Below, in pieces: positions 8,114 to 64,000 of a stretch of DNA of 64,000 nt. The DNA lies in assembly GCF_008806975.1 (NCBI RefSeq), contig NZ_CP031728.1, forward strand, positions 1,240,001 to 1,304,000, given 5' to 3'. Origin of the DNA: Cellvibrio sp. KY-GH-1. GTDB lineage: Bacteria; Pseudomonadota; Gammaproteobacteria; Pseudomonadales; Cellvibrionaceae. Position 1 is the first letter of the stretch, and each line of letters starts with the position of its first letter. Made by a program: the position numbers and the translations under genes. The notes beneath the pieces were generated by a model that was given only the letters and a program-made list of their open reading frames with translations, did no database searches and was not told where the DNA came from.

Positions 8114-9691
8114 TTATTCCCACTCAATCGTTGCGGGCGGCTTGCTCGATACATCGTAGCAAACGCGAGACACACCAGAGATTTCATTGATAATGCGACC
8201 AGATACTTTTTCCAGCAACTCATAAGGCAAATGTGCCCAACGTGCCGTCATAAAATCTACGGTTTCTACTGCACGCAATGAAATTACCCACTCGTATCGG
8301 CGGCCATCACCTACAACGCCAACAGACCTCACAGGCAGGAAAACCGCAAAGGCTTGCGAGGTTTTGTGATACCAGCCAGATGCGTGCAACTCTTCCAAAA
8401 AGATGGCATCAGCTTCACGCAGAATATCTGCGTACTCCTTTTTAACTTCGCCGAGGATACGCACACCCAAGCCTGGACCAGGAAATGGATGACGGTAAAC
8501 CATGTCGTAGGGCAAACCTAATTCCAAACCAATTGCACGCACTTCGTCTTTAAATAATTCACGCAGTGGTTCAACCAGTTTGAAGGCCATATCTTCTGGC
8601 AAACCACCTACATTGTGGTGCGATTTAATAACGTGTGCCTTACCGGTCTTTGCTGCAGCAGATTCAATTACATCCGGGTAAATAGTCCCTTGCGCCAGCC
8701 ATTTAACATCTTTCAACTTTGTGGCTTCAGCATCAAACACATCAATAAAAGTACCGCCAATAATTTTGCGCTTTTTCTCGGGGTCATTTACGCCAGTAAG
8801 CTTGCCAAGGAATTGCTCTTCCGCATCGGCGCGGATAACACGCACGCCCATATTTTTGGCGAACATATCCATTACCTGGTCGCCTTCGTTTTTACGCAAC
8901 AACCCGTTATCGACAAAAACACAGGTGAGTTGATCACCAATCGCTTTGTGTAACAGCGCCGCCACTACCGATGAGTCAACGCCACCGGAAAGACCAAGCA
9001 ACACCTTATCGCCGCCGACTTGCTCTTTCACTTTTTTGATTGCATCTTCAACAATATTAGCGGGCGTCCACAATGGTTCACAACCGCAGGTTTGCAACAC
9101 AAAGTGTTCAAACATGCGCTTGCCTTGCAGTGTATGGGTAACTTCAGGATGGAATTGCACGCCGTAGAATTTTTTAGCTTCGTCGTACATACCGGCAATC
9201 GGGCAAGATGGTGTTGAGGCCATCAAGCTGAAGCCTTCCGGCATTTTAGTCACTTTGTCGCCGTGGCTCATCCACACATCCAGCAACGCGCTACCATCGG
9301 CATCTACGTGATCTTTGATGTCTTTAAACAGGGATGAGTCGCCGTGCGCTTTAATTTGTGCGTAGCCAAACTCGCGAACATTTGATCCTTCTACCAAGCC
9401 ACCCATTTGCATGGCCATGGTTTGCATACCGTAACAAATACCAAATACCGGAACACCCAGGTTGAATACAGCCTCCGGCGCGCGTGGTGAGCCCGCTTCG
9501 GTTGTGGACTCGGGACTGCCCGCCAAAATAATTCCTTTTGGATTGTATGCGCGAATTTCTTCATCGCTCATATCCCAGGCCCGAATCTCGGAGAAAACGC
9601 CAATCTCGCGTACTCGACGCGCAATCAATTGAGTGTATTGGGAACCGAAATCCAGAATAAGAATTCGCTGTGCATGAATATCGTGAGACAT
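8114..9691 (-). CDS. guaA: GMP synthase (glutamine-hydrolysing)
   Basis: Converts XMP to GMP with glutamine and ATP, the last step of guanine nucleotide synthesis. The start at MSHDIHAQR gives 525 aa, equal to E. coli GuaA; an upstream in-frame ATG at 9721 would add 10 unlikely residues. The N-terminal class I amidotransferase carries the nucleophile in FGICYGMQ and the QFHPEVTHT histidine/glutamate pair. The ATP pyrophosphatase P-loop is [11 protein letters not shown]. The C-terminal dimerisation domain ends in KPPATIEWE. It lies downstream of guaB with a hairpin terminator between. Confidence 0.97.
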
Positions 9692-32439: not shown

Positions 32440-32473
32440 GGAGATGAAAACTATTTGTCTATGGTTTAGTACA

Positions 32474-32490
32474 TGGTGCCCGAGGCCGGA
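32474..32490 (-). repeat. tRNA 3' end remnant, probable left attachment site of the prophage
   Basis: On the minus strand the 17 bases read TCCGGCCTCGGGCACCA: the end of a T-arm, acceptor strand CTCGGGC, discriminator and CCA. The GCCCGAG acceptor type points to tRNA-Leu. The T-loop and everything 5' of it are missing, and a terminator follows the CCA. This is the geometry expected when an element has inserted into the 3' end of a minus-strand tRNA gene: remnant left, intact gene at the far right end. Not proven without the other junction. Confidence 0.6.
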
Positions 32491-32622
32491 CACCAATTAC
32501 CGCTATATTGGAGAGTTAAAAACAAAAATACGTAAATTATAAGTATTTCAACCCTAAAAAGAACACCCAAATTAATCATCGATTAAAGTCAGAATTTAGG
32601 ACTTGAACAGGGCCAGAAACTA

Positions 32623-58082: not shown

Positions 58083-58274
58083 TTAAGCGGCCTTTTTGGC
58101 TTTCGGCTTTCTGATTTCTTCACAACCAAAAGAGCCATCATCATTTTCAATTATGAACACAGCCCTTTTACTGGCGAGCATCTGAGATACAGCACTCTGC
58201 GAACACCCAATGATTTCCGCCGCTCTCAACTGAGACTGATTACTACAAAACTCACTTAGGGGAATTTTCTTCAT
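58083..58274 (-). CDS. Cro-like repressor
   Basis: 63 aa from MKKIPLSEFCSN (ATG 58274, AGAGAGG upstream). A helix-turn-helix lies at about residues 13-32 (LRAAEIIGCSQSAVSQML) and a basic tail KPKAKKAA ends it. First gene of the leftward early transcript, divergent from the CI-like gene, as expected for Cro. Confidence 0.85.
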   Translation of the reverse strand: MKKIPLSEFCSNQSQLRAAEIIGCSQSAVSQMLASKRAVFIIENDDGSFGCEEIRKPKAKKAA

Positions 58275-58296
58275 ATACACCTCTCTTGAGAGATGA

Positions 58297-58325
58297 AATA
58301 TAAGCAATACTTGTATTTTAGTCAA
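58297..58325 (-). promoter_or_regulatory. Leftward early promoter of cro with overlapping operators
   Basis: On the minus strand TTGACT (58325-58320) and TATATT (58302-58297) are separated by exactly 17 bases. One operator-like site (AAATATAAGCAAT, 58296-58308) covers the -10 and a second core (AGCAATGCT, 58328-58336) lies just upstream of the -35. Confidence 0.82.
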
Positions 58326-58373
58326 CAGCAATGCTTGTTTGTTGTTATTAGCATGACTTATTAAAATTTGAAG

Positions 58374-58784
58374 ATGAAAAAACGACGCGAACTATCACCA
58401 GCAGAATTAGAAATTGCACAGCGTGCGATGGCACATTTTCAACGGTGTAAAAAAGACAACGGGCTTACACAGTCAAAACTGGCAGATGCCGTAGGGATGA
58501 GCCAAAGCGCTATAGGTCAGTACCTCAACGGCGAAATCCCATTTAACCTTCCAGCGCTTATATTGCTCGCCAAAGAATTTGGATGCACTCTCCAGGATTT
58601 AGACCCAGACTGCGAGCACATCCTACCCATAACCCCAGAAGAAAAAGCCCTTATCGCAGCTTACAGGGACATGACTGGCCGTCATGACGAAGCAAGTAAA
58701 AAAGCTCTGCTTCAAGTTGCGGAACTGTCTCCAGCCTATCGCGTAACGCTTGAGCATACCGCAAAAACAACTCCCTCTGATTAG
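58374..58784 (+). CDS. CI-like repressor (XRE helix-turn-helix, no peptidase domain)
   Basis: 136 aa from MKKRRELSP (ATG 58374; ATG 58368 is possible). The XRE domain covers about residues 15-75 (GLTQSKLADAVGMSQSAIGQYLNGE). A short helical tail remains instead of the ~120-residue S24 self-cleavage domain of lambda CI. It presumably binds the operators in the 58296-58336 gap and at 59390-59436. Confidence 0.82.
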   Translation: MKKRRELSPAELEIAQRAMAHFQRCKKDNGLTQSKLADAVGMSQSAIGQYLNGEIPFNLPALILLAKEFGCTLQDLDPDCEHILPITPEEKALIAAYRDMTGRHDEASKKALLQVAELSPAYRVTLEHTAKTTPSD

Positions 58785-59389: not shown

Positions 59390-59436
59390 AAATATAAGCA
59401 ATGCTGTTTACAAATATAAAAGCATTGCTTATATTT
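59390..59436 (+). promoter_or_regulatory. pL-like promoter of the variable-protein operon, flanked by repressor operators
   Basis: TTTACA (59407-59412) and TATATT (59430-59435) with a 17-base spacer. Perfect 16-base inverted arms AAATATAAGCAATGCT (59390-59405) and AGCATTGCTTATATTT (59421-59436) flank and cover it. The same 13-base AAATATAAGCAAT overlaps the cro -10 box, so the phage repressor likely controls both promoters. Confidence 0.8.
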
Positions 59437-59438
59437 AT

Positions 59439-59464
59439 CCCCATCGTATCACCAACCGATGGGG
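59439..59464 (+). other. Leader hairpin before the first variable-protein gene
   Basis: CCCCATCG (59439-59446) and CGATGGGG (59457-59464) could pair around a 10-base loop, with the ribosome-site GGGG in the 3' arm, 7 bases before the ATG. The expected transcript start near 59442 would cut the 5' arm, so an effect on translation is doubtful. Confidence 0.3.
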
Positions 59465-59471
59465 AAACACC

Positions 59472-60068
59472 ATGCAAGACACAACCAAAACCACGCTTTC
59501 CACCCTGCTCAGCGCAGAATCCACCCAGGTAAACCCGCTTATTGCCAATAGCACCGATGAAAACATCGACTTTGGCGACGCCGCGCAAACACTCACCCCA
59601 CCACGCATAGGCACCTACTGGCCCAGCCAAGGCGGCATGTACGCCGGAGTTATCTTCGACCAATTACGCCACTGGCATTTGATCCTTCCCATCACCAGCG
59701 ATGCACTTATTGAAGACGCTGAATGGAGTCAAATGGGCGTGGAAATACCAGGCGAATTCAGCACCCGCGACGGCCTGCACAACACCAAATTAATTTTGGC
59801 TGCCGACCCAACCAACAAAATCGCACTGCACTGCACCTCACTCAATATCGAAGGCCACAACGATTTTTACTGGCCATCGCAATTCGAACAAAACCTCTGC
59901 TGCATCAACCTGCAAGGCCACTTCAAAAAAGATTGGCACTGGAGCAGTACCCAGTACTCAGCGGACAACGCGTGGACTCAGGCCTTTGAGTACGGCTTCC
60001 AGAACGTCGACGGCAAGAATTGCCGCTACGCGGCGCGAGCAGTCCGCAGAATTTTAATCATTGAGTAA
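59472..60068 (+). CDS. Variable lectin-like (DUF1566-type) protein 1, DGR target candidate
   Basis: 198 aa, no signal peptide or membrane helix. It shares with the next two genes PPRIGTYWPSQGGMYAG near residue 41, IPGEFSTRDGLHNTKLILAA and FYWPSQFEQNLCC. It ends in the variable part WHWSSTQYS...AARAVRR (residues 155-193), typical of DUF1566/C-type-lectin-like DGR proteins, in which the surface loop residues vary while the W..SST and RAVRR frame stays fixed. First gene of the repressor-controlled rightward operon. Ligand and location are unknown. Confidence 0.85.
   Translation: MQDTTKTTLSTLLSAESTQVNPLIANSTDENIDFGDAAQTLTPPRIGTYWPSQGGMYAGVIFDQLRHWHLILPITSDALIEDAEWSQMGVEIPGEFSTRDGLHNTKLILAADPTNKIALHCTSLNIEGHNDFYWPSQFEQNLCCINLQGHFKKDWHWSSTQYSADNAWTQAFEYGFQNVDGKNCRYAARAVRRILIIE
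59934..60050 (+). repeat. DGR-type variable region, copy 1
   Basis: 117 bases (39 codons), in register with copies at 60503-60619 and 61240-61356. Variable codons here encode Y, D, N, T, A, Y, F, N, V, G, N. The final 30 bases, from TGCCGCTACG to CCGCAGA, are identical in all three. Confidence 0.9.
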
Positions 60069-60097
60069 TTCAACCATTTAAAAACTGCATTCAAATG

Positions 60098-60110
60098 CGC
60101 GCAGCGCTTT
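60098..60110 (+). repeat. Post-VR repeat with GC hairpin, copy 1
   Basis: GCGCGCAGCGC followed by TTTACG, about 48 bases after the variable region. Copies after the other two variable regions are AGCGC-GCA-GCGCT hairpins (60658-60670 and 61398-61410) within a longer shared block. Confidence 0.6.
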
Positions 60111-60130
60111 ACGTTTTTTCGGAGATAACC

Positions 60131-60634
60131 ATGCAAAACAACCAAGAAAAAGTTAGTGCAGAAAAAAATAATTTAACCCCGCCCCGCATAGGCACCTACT
60201 GGCCCGGCCAAGGCGGTATTTATATTGGCCAAATGCTGGATGGCGAAACACAAATCGCACTAATTATGGCGACCAAACCCTTTGAAGGTGAATGGGGCAA
60301 CTATGGCGAGACCATCCCGGGCGAATTCAGCTTTAGCAATGGTCAACACAACTCCCAATTAATCCTGGCTGCCGAACCAGAAAACCAACTGCTGCTGGAT
60401 ATCACCAAGCACGAAGCAGATGGCCACACCGATTTTTACCTACCTGCAAATTTTGAACAAAACCTCATCTGCGCAAACGCGCAAGCACACGTTGAAAAAG
60501 TTTGGCACTGGAGCAGTACCCAGTACTCAGCGATCACCGCGTGGTTTCAGGACTTTGAGTACGGCGGCCAGCTCATCGACAGCAAGGGTTGCCGCTACGC
60601 GGCGCGAGCAGTCCGCAGATTAATCATTGAGTAA
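60131..60634 (+). CDS. Variable lectin-like (DUF1566-type) protein 2, DGR target candidate
   Basis: 167 aa from ATG 60131 (GGAGATAACC upstream); the in-frame ATG 36 bases earlier lies in the intergenic repeat. PPRIGTYWPGQGGIYIG, IPGEFSFSNGQHNSQLILAA and FYLPANFEQNLICA align with copies 1 and 3, with a shorter N-terminus. Terminal variable part at residues 125-163 carries Y, I, T, F, D, Y, G, L, I, S, G at the variable codons. Confidence 0.85.
   Translation: MQNNQEKVSAEKNNLTPPRIGTYWPGQGGIYIGQMLDGETQIALIMATKPFEGEWGNYGETIPGEFSFSNGQHNSQLILAAEPENQLLLDITKHEADGHTDFYLPANFEQNLICANAQAHVEKVWHWSSTQYSAITAWFQDFEYGGQLIDSKGCRYAARAVRRLIIE
60503..60619 (+). repeat. DGR-type variable region, copy 2
   Basis: 117 bases aligned without gaps to copies 1 and 3. 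After the region the shared frame TTAATCATTGAGTAATTCA continues past the stop codon in all three. Confidence 0.9.
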
Positions 60635-60657
60635 TTCAGCCATTTAACCTAACCAAT

Positions 60658-60670
60658 AGCGCGCAGCGCT
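60658..60670 (+). repeat. Post-VR repeat with GC hairpin, copy 2
   Basis: AGCGC-GCA-GCGCT hairpin inside ACCAATAGCG...TTTACGATT, shared with copy 3, about 39 bases after the variable region. Confidence 0.65.
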
Positions 60671-60696
60671 TTACGATTCCTTTTAAAGGAAAAGCC

Positions 60697-61374
60697 ATGA
60701 ACCATAACGCTCTTATTGATGCAGTTAAATCCGCGCTATCTGCACCTGGTGCAGGTGAATCGCTACGCATTAGCCTAACCAATAGCTCAGGAACACTGGA
60801 TTTGTGCATGGGCAATTACAAATCAGAAAACCCAACGGAAGAAATCTCAAATAAACCACCTCGCATTGGCGATTATTGGAGCGGTCAAGGCGGCTACTAC
60901 GCAGGAATCATGCGCGACGGAAGCCGCCAATGGCATTTGATCCTCGCCGTAGATGCTGTTGATGTAACCGCGCTTGGCGACCAATGCAAAAAAATTATTC
61001 CGTCCGTCGAAATAGAAATTAAAGGCGAATGGGGGAAATCTAATTCGCAAATTCCTGGTGAATTCAGTCGCCGCGATGGGAAAAACAACACCCGATTAAT
61101 TTTGGCCGCCGACCCCGAAAATAAAATTGCGAGCCACATCAGCAGCCTTTTAATTGGCGGACACAAAGATTACTACTGGCCAAGCGAATGCGAAAACAAT
61201 TTGTTATTCGCCAACCTACCAGAACACCTGAAACCGGAATGGCACTGGAGCAGTACCCAGTTCTCAGCGAACCGCGCGTGGAATCAGGGCTTTGAGGACG
61301 GCCACCAGGACGTCGACAGCAAGGGTTGCCGCTACGCGGCGCGAGCAGTCCGCAGAATATTAATCATTGAGTAA
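60697..61374 (+). CDS. Variable lectin-like (DUF1566-type) protein 3, DGR target candidate
   Basis: 225 aa, the longest copy. An extra N-terminal ~50 residues (MNHNALIDAVKSALSAPGAG) precede PPRIGDYWSGQGGYYAG. An insert with CKKIIPSVEIEIKGEWGKS lies before IPGEFSRRDGKNNTRLILAA. Terminal variable part at residues 182-220 carries F, N, R, N, G, D, H, D, V, S, G at the variable codons. The conserved body diverges strongly from copies 1 and 2 while the 3' end is almost identical. Confidence 0.85.
   Translation: MNHNALIDAVKSALSAPGAGESLRISLTNSSGTLDLCMGNYKSENPTEEISNKPPRIGDYWSGQGGYYAGIMRDGSRQWHLILAVDAVDVTALGDQCKKIIPSVEIEIKGEWGKSNSQIPGEFSRRDGKNNTRLILAADPENKIASHISSLLIGGHKDYYWPSECENNLLFANLPEHLKPEWHWSSTQFSANRAWNQGFEDGHQDVDSKGCRYAARAVRRILIIE
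61240..61356 (+). repeat. DGR-type variable region, copy 3
   Basis: 117 bases. Two sites where copies 1 and 2 both lack adenine are also non-adenine here; the remaining variable sites have adenine in one or more copies. Confidence 0.9.
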
Positions 61375-61430: not shown

Positions 61431-61637
61431 GTGAGCGTTTTAATTCACCCCACAGCAACGAATCCGAACTGCATTGCAGAACTGCAAGAAAACACCGGAT
61501 TGCGCGCTGTAATTGGAAAAACATTTGGTGTGTTAGTGCAAAAAAATGGCAAAAAGCCACAAATGCGTGACACCAAACCAACTCATTACAAAACATTTGA
61601 TCACCCACCGTTTGATGGCGGAGGCCGCGCAGCATGA
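61431..61637 (+). CDS. Small early phage protein of unknown function
   Basis: 68 aa from GTG 61431, with GGAGGT just upstream. Contains LHPTATNPN-like N-terminus, GLRAVIGKTFGVLVQKNGKK and a Gly-rich end. It overlaps the next gene by 4 bases (ATGA). No family recognised. Its position right behind the variable genes makes it a candidate accessory gene. Confidence 0.55.
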   Translation: MSVLIHPTATNPNCIAELQENTGLRAVIGKTFGVLVQKNGKKPQMRDTKPTHYKTFDHPPFDGGGRAA

Positions 61638-62026
61638 GACCGTTACCGCAACGCACTGAAACCGGCTACACCCTAGGCAATTTAATTGTTGAAGGCCTGC
61701 CGCCACGGCAAAGCCAAATTCTATTAATGCGCGCACTCGGCCTTACCGCAAAAGAAATCGCCAGCACTCTGCAATGCAGCGCTGCAAATGTTGAGCAGGC
61801 CATCAACATATTATTTTTCAAGCTGAAGGCGAATAGCAGCAGCGAATTGGTAACCAAGGCATTTTTAAGCCAGACATTACGCATGCTGTCATTTGCTCTT
61901 TTTTTCGTTGGAATTTTTGGTATTAACCCGCCAGATAGTAACACCAATGTTCGAATTCCACGCACCAGAACAACACAAACCGCTCGCATCCAGCGCGGCG
62001 GAAACAATAAAAAACTATGGGGTTAA
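61634..62026 (+). CDS. LuxR/GerE-type helix-turn-helix protein with membrane helix
   Basis: 130 aa. The GerE-type helix-turn-helix (PPRQSQILLMRALGLTAKEIASTLQCSAANVEQAINILFFKL) covers residues 20-65. A hydrophobic segment (about 82-97, MLSFALFFVGIFGI) and a basic tail follow. Without a receiver domain; a membrane-linked DNA-binding protein is an unusual build. Coupled to both neighbours by overlap. Confidence 0.65.
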   Translation: MRPLPQRTETGYTLGNLIVEGLPPRQSQILLMRALGLTAKEIASTLQCSAANVEQAINILFFKLKANSSSELVTKAFLSQTLRMLSFALFFVGIFGINPPDSNTNVRIPRTRTTQTARIQRGGNNKKLWG

Positions 62027-63816: not shown

Positions 63817-64000
63817 TGGAATGGCAACAGAAAACCAATTGGTTCATGCAAAGCGATGCCGGTTACCGCATCAGTAAAGCAACCAGTAAATGTCCAGGCC
63901 AATACGCCGCCTGGTCACCGGGCAGTAAAACAGAGACTCCAGCACTTTCCTATAAAGGAACGCTGGACGAAGCAAAGCAAGTTTGCGAAGAACACTTTCA
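63798..64000 (+). CDS. Partial gene, unknown early phage protein cut by the window edge
   Basis: The frame is open from ATG 63798, overlapping the previous stop by 19 bases, to the end. Residues visible (67) begin MGQSKLVEWQQKTNWFM and include SKCPGQYAAWSPG and LDEAKQVCEEHF. No family recognised. Completion lies beyond the window. Confidence 0.55.
   Translation, partial: MGQSKLVEWQQKTNWFMQSDAGYRISKATSKCPGQYAAWSPGSKTETPALSYKGTLDEAKQVCEEHF

Follow-up and report, generated by a model that had tools for sequence, protein, structure and literature searches.

A prophage diversity-generating retroelement in Cellvibrio with four target genes and an RT-15 RNA between avd and the template repeat

The window analysed here (the whole stretch of 64,000 nt, C1:1240001-1304000 of the single-contig, 5.76 Mb genome of Cellvibrio sp. 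KY-GH-1) includes the left part of a 38.8 kb prophage, which contains the target array of a diversity-generating retroelement (DGR). Three paralogous target genes, each with a variable region (VR) near the 3′ end, lie in tandem in the window, and about 4-6 kb to their right a fourth target gene, avd, a single template repeat (TR) and a DGR reverse transcriptase (RT) gene were identified, with the RT match starting 2.8 kb beyond the window edge (Table 1). The terminase, portal, head and tail genes of the prophage are on the minus strand.

Table 1. Features of the prophage and its retroelement. L002 is the stretch taken around the RT match; an L002 position equals the window position minus 57999.
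Feature	Position	Strand	Remarks
Left prophage end	window 32471..32491	+	21-bp repeat of tRNA-Leu 3′ end
Cro homologue (lytic side)	window 58086..58331	-	Pfam PF09048 1.6e-13
Operator-like 16-mer	window 58296..58311	+	exact AAATATAAGCAATNCT match, on -10 box of cro promoter-like site
C1-type repressor	window 58368..58784	+	Pfam HTH_3 2.4e-12
PL-like promoter	window 59390..59436	.	TTTACA-17-TATATT, inside 19-nt inverted repeat of two operator-like 16-mers
Target 1	window 59472..60068	+	198 aa, Lcl_C-like; PHROG 4245 1.4e-30; Pfam Lcl_C 4.3e-4, below cut-off
VR1	window 59945..60050	+	vs TR: 13 A-site mismatches, 0 other
Target 2	window 60131..60634	+	167 aa; PHROG 4245 1.7e-25
VR2	window 60514..60620	+	vs TR: 16 A-site mismatches, 0 other
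Target 3	window 60697..61374	+	225 aa, C-type lectin fold; AlphaFold2 + Foldseek
VR3	window 61251..61356	+	vs TR: 15 A-site mismatches, 0 other
Target 4	L002 7300-7932		beyond window edge
VR4	L002 7797-7903		within target 4
avd	L002 7973-8362		between target 4 and TR
RT-15 leader	L002 8316-8492		Rfam match; starts inside avd 3′ end, stops at TR start
TR	L002 8486-8592 = C1:1306485-1306591		avd just before, RT just after
RT	L002 8482 (or another start) to 9720
Cytosine-methyltransferase-like gene			3′ of RT, before tyrosine recombinase
Tyrosine recombinase	L002 12128-13114	-	adjoins tRNA-Leu
Right prophage end	L002 13268-13288		second copy of 21-bp tRNA-Leu repeat; beyond window edge

The three window paralogues share 117-base segments (starting at 59934, 60503 and 61240), which align without gaps and differ at 17 sites in 11 codons, at codon positions 1 or 2 only, exactly as in the preliminary description of this DNA. 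That description had further postulated a single template with adenine at all 17 sites, and a DGR RT with Avd to the right of position 64000; the TR carries adenine at 17/17 of these sites and is flanked by avd and RT. Its derivation of the full 117 bases from the template was too generous, as only about 106 bases are template-derived and the first 11 bases of each segment reflect paralogy outside the TR. The fourth target lies past the window edge, where it could not be seen from the window that yielded the count of three. The identical 3′ end described as 30 bases comprises 31 bases in all three segments, and its role as the initiation of mutagenic homing (IMH) site is a proposal.

When the TR was compared with all four VRs, 20 sites were variable. 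Within L002 8490-8591, where the TR has 35 adenines in 102 bases, the VRs differ from it by 11, 14, 13 and 12 mismatches, and 50/50 of these fall on TR adenines (hypergeometric P per VR copy 4e-8 to 2e-6). A longer match from L002 8486 gives 13, 16, 15 and 14 mismatches at A and 0 elsewhere, but the left TR/VR border is uncertain because all four VRs agree at the two sites gained. The 35 adenines are distributed over codon positions 1, 2 and 3 as 14, 17 and 4, and the VR changes as 31, 19 and none. A search of the whole genome with the TR returned nothing at E < 0.02 beyond the TR and the four VRs, the other 15 of the 20 rows being short matches with E of 0.026 or worse. Each VR is located at the target C terminus with an invariant 3′ end (putative IMH), and is followed by a GC stem with a GCA loop (4, 5, 5 and 6 bp after VR1-4), shorter than the phage-related DGR hairpins with stems of 7-10 bp and 4-nt loops described in passages of PMC3240598.

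SQ-containing motifs are a mark of DGR RTs, and the RT gene, which matches RVT_1 and PHROG 1423, has an open frame with IGNLSSQ and YVDD. Its best PDB match was 8ub7 (the BPP-1 RT, identity to brt checked), with which the IGxLxSQ and YxDD stretches align. The Avd protein matched Pfam bAvd above the cut-off and NCBIfam DivGenRetAVD with 58 bits, under its 80-bit cut-off; the PDB search with Avd gave no match at 0.01. The prophage element is a DGR beyond reasonable doubt.

Between avd and TR, Rfam model RF03018 (RT-15) matched over its full length (model positions 1-192) with 148.7 bits against a gathering score of 82. The Rfam entry line says only 'RT-15 RNA', and the RNA is here tied to the TR of a DGR. 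For comparison, the RT sequence served to collect relatives: 13 loci from species genomes, 31 from viral contigs, three of 143 other family genomes and seven annotated phage stretches among 115 matching phage records. At E 1e-40, RT relatives were found in 4/144 family genomes including the present one; in two of these four the RT is just 37% identical. A set of 33 loci was scanned with Rfam, leaving out duplicates, near-duplicates and others (e.g. L016, L021-L023, L032, L062, L064, L068, L069). Wherever RT identity reached 57% or more (26/26, the present one included), RT-15 lay between avd and TR, and it was not found in the other seven loci, at 36-48% (0/7). In the 27 tabulated loci, the last of which (L064) was assigned RT-15 by its deposited annotation, the 3′ end of the RNA falls between -1 and +6 nt relative to where the TR starts.

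Among 25 RT-15 sequences, 26 of the 45 consensus pairs were preserved by double changes, with both partners altered in one sequence or more, and over 64 clusters, set at 92% identity, the leader folded at -45.2 kcal/mol, compared with -0.45 on average for column shuffles (sd 0.77). No conserved fold was seen in the 64 clusters for the 180 nt that span and follow the TR end (-0.23 against -0.04 kcal/mol when shuffled, sd 0.27). Independently of the RT, viral contigs were searched with a 17-base RT-15 pattern, which gave at least 80 loci (counts include redundant loci); 62 of the 80 matches listed have a TR/VR pair, with 1593 mismatches at A and 26 elsewhere. Enough flank was available in 65 of the matches listed: 53 have the RT-15 3′ motif, 51 of these with an adenine-biased TR/VR right behind it, and such a TR/VR is carried by six of the 12 without the motif. 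Across a class-wide sample of 369 genomes, RT-15 was found in the present genome only.

The RT-numbered RNAs reportedly stem from a 2017 study of 224 candidate structured RNAs. A literature search returned no paper on the RT-15 RNA by name and, under RF03018, a single genome paper; the original RT-15 description, which was outside that search, may already state the link to DGRs.

Taken together, the locus is most probably a complete prophage DGR of an RT-15 class, with four early target genes and a template RNA that has its structured part in a 5′ leader. Upon induction or infection, the PL-like promoter would be freed from the repressor, and a single transcript would run through targets 1-3, the intervening genes, target 4, avd, the RT-15 leader, TR and RT. 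By homology to BPP-1, RT and Avd would copy the TR part of this RNA with errors at adenines, and the complementary DNA would replace the VR of any of the four target genes, with the identical 3′ 31 bases acting as IMH. Since the structured part lies 5′ of the TR, binding of RT-Avd would probably be set by the 5′ leader in the RT-15 class. The TR would be read twice, once as template and once, in the +1 frame, to encode part of the RT, and in most class members the RT gene would start in or before the TR.

The early position of the targets is indicated by the lysogeny switch to their left, formed by the Cro homologue on the minus strand and the C1-type repressor on the plus strand. Two promoter-like sites rank highest in the region, one before target 1 and the other at cro (TTGACT-17-TATATT, minus strand). 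The former is enclosed by a 19-nt inverted repeat composed of two copies of AAATATAAGCAATGCT; beyond it, AAATATAAGCAATNCT is matched exactly at one more place in the 64 kb (three exact matches in all), which overlaps the cro -10 box. The promoter-like site and the operator copies suggest that targets 1-3 would head a PL-like operon with an operator common to the cro promoter. The head-of-operon placement, already made in the preliminary description, thereby gains a promoter-like site within two 16-bp copies that recur at cro, and is supported, not proven. A further inverted repeat (CCCCATCG/CGATGGGG, window 59439-59464), seen by eye just before the target 1 start, could hide the ribosome-binding site. 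In phages Magia and Cruim01 a target likewise lies behind the repressor on the same strand (0.8 and 1.7 kb off), and the arrangement in L059 and L044 is similar by eye.

Among the targets, the fold was modelled for target 3 (AlphaFold2, predicted local distance difference test score 85.9). Its best Foldseek match, and the sole solved structure below 0.001, was the C-terminal domain of Legionella Lcl (8q4e, 8.9e-5), also retrieved by profile search; C-type lectins followed as weak matches. The Pfam Lcl_C (PF07603) scores of the targets, 19.5-26.9 bits, are below the gathering threshold of 34.9, while the fold is similar. No other domain was found in the four targets by the Pfam scan, and PADLOC gave no defence family at 0.001. 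In the 27 RT-15 loci, 58 targets readable by automatic start choice were 99-280 aa long, and nearly all RT-15-locus targets are without a strong N-terminal hydropathic stretch. The automatic frame finder mixed frames for L032, L066 and L069; two targets of L066 and one of L069 received no start, and some other frames of these two loci are wrong.

As the targets are small, of lectin fold, apparently leaderless and early, a binding partner in the infected cell seems more likely than a tail-adhesin role. The opposite view, that they are virion receptor-binding proteins despite the early position of their genes, as phage DGR targets usually are, appears rather unlikely to us. It has the C-type lectin fold in its favour, as well as similar folds in long phage proteins (one named tail fiber protein) and the tail-protein annotation that most viral targets of DGR clades 1, 4 and 6 bear according to extracts of PMC8144416. 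The target genes, however, adjoin the repressor, with the tail module far off on the other strand, no further Pfam domain accompanies the fold in the four targets, and a target or homologue is comparably placed in phages D3, Magia and Cruim01. If the targets work inside the cell, phages apply directed hypermutation beyond host attachment.

With regard to the second reading of the TR, the RT frame equals the VR frame +1 in 55/58 clusters (five more have no set frame), in 52/58 pattern-found loci among the matches listed (by a second frame finder), and in 24/24 settled of the 27 tabulated loci. In two of the three phase exceptions, L015 and L041, the TR has stops in the RT frame, and an ATG is present 16 and 10 nt behind the TR. 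The RT start has to lie in or before the TR in 48, and inside it in three, of the 63 clusters that have an RT frame. The distance from TR to the RT motif is about 28 to 64 nt, and an ATG, GTG or TTG is absent from this interval in 11/27 loci, including the present one, where the choices are GTG 8353, ATG 8482 and TTG 8527 (L002). Overlap of the TR with the annotated RT open reading frame was noted in 2012 as 'group 3', according to passages of PMC3521204.

The BPP-1 DGR (mtd-avd-TR-brt) has avd, TR and RT in common with the present element, and also adenine-biased VR changes (18/22 mismatches at A in the BPP-1 record) and a VR near the target C terminus. It differs by its single tail-protein target, by a TR directly behind avd (gap 0) and by a 144-nt spacer before brt, which folds and recruits the RT-Avd complex as stated in part of PMC12875486. 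The present element, in contrast, has four early targets, RT-15 in a 123-nt gap between avd and TR, and no gap before the RT; a BPP-1-type structured spacer between TR and RT was not found here, nor a start between TR and RT motif. The template geometry is the reverse of that in BPP-1.

Several observations weigh against the reading of the locus as an RT-15-class element with early targets. The leader of the present locus folded together with its TR barely beats shuffles (z -1.93), and two of the 53 loci with a complete RT-15 motif among the matches listed (L093, L128) gave no TR/VR. A start after the TR is possible in 10/63 clusters and the sole option in two, counted with a heuristic cut-off of 27 nt past the TR and over clusters that share descent. 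The extended open frame ahead of the RT was rejected as proof of coding, since the BPP-1 brt frame is likewise open for 702 nt, so that the RT-coding argument rests on phase and start codons. When up to three mismatches are allowed, the operator pattern occurs no more often than by chance (7 against 3.5, 9/100 shuffles), and promoter-like sites are no more numerous than expected (8 against 7.2); the case for the operator is therefore carried by its three exact matches and where they lie. The targets are leaderless by hydropathy only, and one Cruim01 target scores 2.47, like Legionella targets with clear leaders (L019 2.56, L021 2.06, L023 2.31), of which only L019 was scanned for RT-15, with no match. 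Hairpins are required in BPP-1; here the stems have 4-6 bp, and a stem of 5 bp or more is absent behind several relatives' VRs, on which ground the hairpin was rejected as a constant feature. Lastly, a single strain with the prophage was available, and the signs of activity come from relatives.

Some of these points would suit an ordinary BPP-1-like multi-target DGR in which the RT starts after the TR, RT-15 acts as an unrelated regulatory RNA 5′ of the RT gene and the 3′ spacer structure is hidden in the RT coding region. Such an element, which could draw on the open frame upstream of brt, on the clusters with a possible start behind the TR, and on multi-target DGRs and TR/RT overlap being in print (passages of PMC3521204 and PMC6642488), is in our judgement improbable. 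It is opposed by the constant RT/VR phase, by the loci lacking a start codon between TR and RT motif and by the lack of a conserved fold 3′ of the TR. A spacer hidden in the RT coding region was rejected, as there was no consensus fold and synonymous codons near the RT 5′ end were not clearly more conserved (identity 0.49 in the first window, against 0.43 overall and as much as 0.54 elsewhere).

Activity was assessed by TR/VR comparison. A scan of 55 loci including the present one accepted pairs in 52, with 103 VRs and 1352 mismatches at A against 51 elsewhere, duplicates counted; this ratio overstates the bias because the scoring, in which mismatches at A are cheap, and the filter favour A mismatches. 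Pairs were not accepted in L054 (no RT match), L016 (no pair) and L022 (removed by the filter with 7 non-A mismatches). Comparisons of strains are free of this flaw. Between L031 and L052, 98.9% identical over 8.9 kb, each of the two VRs changed at 18/39 A sites, against 0 and 1 changes among 69 non-A sites and likewise 0 and 1 among 449 flanking sites. In the Legionella pair L018/L023, 17/37 A sites differ against 0/105 non-A and 0/449 flanking sites. More distant pairs had some non-A changes (up to 7/67) and many in the flanks, and pairs identical throughout (such as L012/L038, L014/L043, L024/L025) gave no information. A-site changes in VRs with unchanged flanks therefore indicate that elements of this kind are active, with two targets changed in one lineage.

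For the prophage copy itself we infer activity. There is a small chance that it is a relic with an inactive DGR, as might be suspected from the single strain available and from the VR1 hairpin of only 4 bp; the RT frame, however, is open with IGNLSSQ and YVDD kept, and the VRs are without non-A changes in 8490-8591. Plain paralogy with gene conversion and no retroelement, to which the paralogous target bodies and the capacity of conversion to homogenise ends would lend themselves, is rejected by the TR and has a negligible probability, given that all 50 mismatches are on TR adenines and that RT, avd and TR are all present.

Beyond the reading of this locus, RT-15 elements could tentatively be regarded as a separate DGR class whose template RNA is inverted, in which a 5′ leader stands for the 3′ spacer of BPP-1 and an RT start in the template makes translation and reverse transcription compete, and which diversifies intracellular early proteins, e.g. 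counter-defence or takeover factors, rather than tail adhesins; we hold this wider proposal to be possible but doubtful. The class features (5′ structured leader, RT start in or before the TR, several small early targets) may be new. If the leader replaces the 3′ spacer, DGR RTs can be loaded and primed in two different ways, and RT-15 acquires a function. The claims on the leader and on the intracellular role could become testable in Pseudomonas phages that carry the cassette (Haboob, phPA-G) or, at a like place, the target gene alone (D3).

The three-target array, termed unusual in the preliminary description, was rejected as the novelty on the basis of literature and relatives. Passages of PMC6642488 give multiple VRs for 28.6% of non-redundant DGRs, and parts of PMC3521204 list, in 2012, up to four VRs per DGR; the multi-VR DGRs of DiGReF (Ralstonia, Collimonas, Burkholderia, Pseudogulbenkiania and others), likened here by description only, have 2-4 VRs each. 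Among the matches listed, at least two VRs were present in every locus that has a TR/VR and 1400 nt or more of upstream sequence (47/47), and in seven of the 29 loci with at least 4500 nt upstream a VR is more than 1.8 kb away. A second VR about 9 kb off, on the opposite (minus) strand, was seen in the related DGRs of L046 and L047 (at 11966 and 10448; RT 45% identical), and the RT-15 scan of L046 gave no match.

A close named system is Burkholderia phage Magia, which shares an RT about 60% identical, RT-15, avd and small lectin-fold targets in the early region, one of them behind the repressor as stated above. Parts of PMC7883833 name its genes 47 and 57 as potential targets. Three VRs were found here in Magia, compared with four in the present prophage, three of them in one array; the third Magia VR is at L066 12517-12607, in a gene annotated as hypothetical. 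In Pseudomonas phage D3, a classical laboratory phage, the target homologue orf68 is the first annotated gene behind cI, 729 nt away, and the D3 stretch 25000-56000 gave no significant RT match. The deposited frame of orf68 (L071 19081-19641) departs from its relatives in the 3′ part. Phage vB_Pae_U7 has two adjacent target homologues (L193 7267-7863 and 7872-8462) with identical 3′ ends and VR-like differences, and no RT was found within about 8 kb of them; the pair is perhaps an array left after loss of the DGR.

In the window itself, a small sigma-70 region 4 / LuxR-type protein is encoded at 61634-62026, shortly 3′ of the target array. Homologues of the target domain also occur in giant Pseudomonas phages, about 287 kb in size (Callisto, Paride and others).

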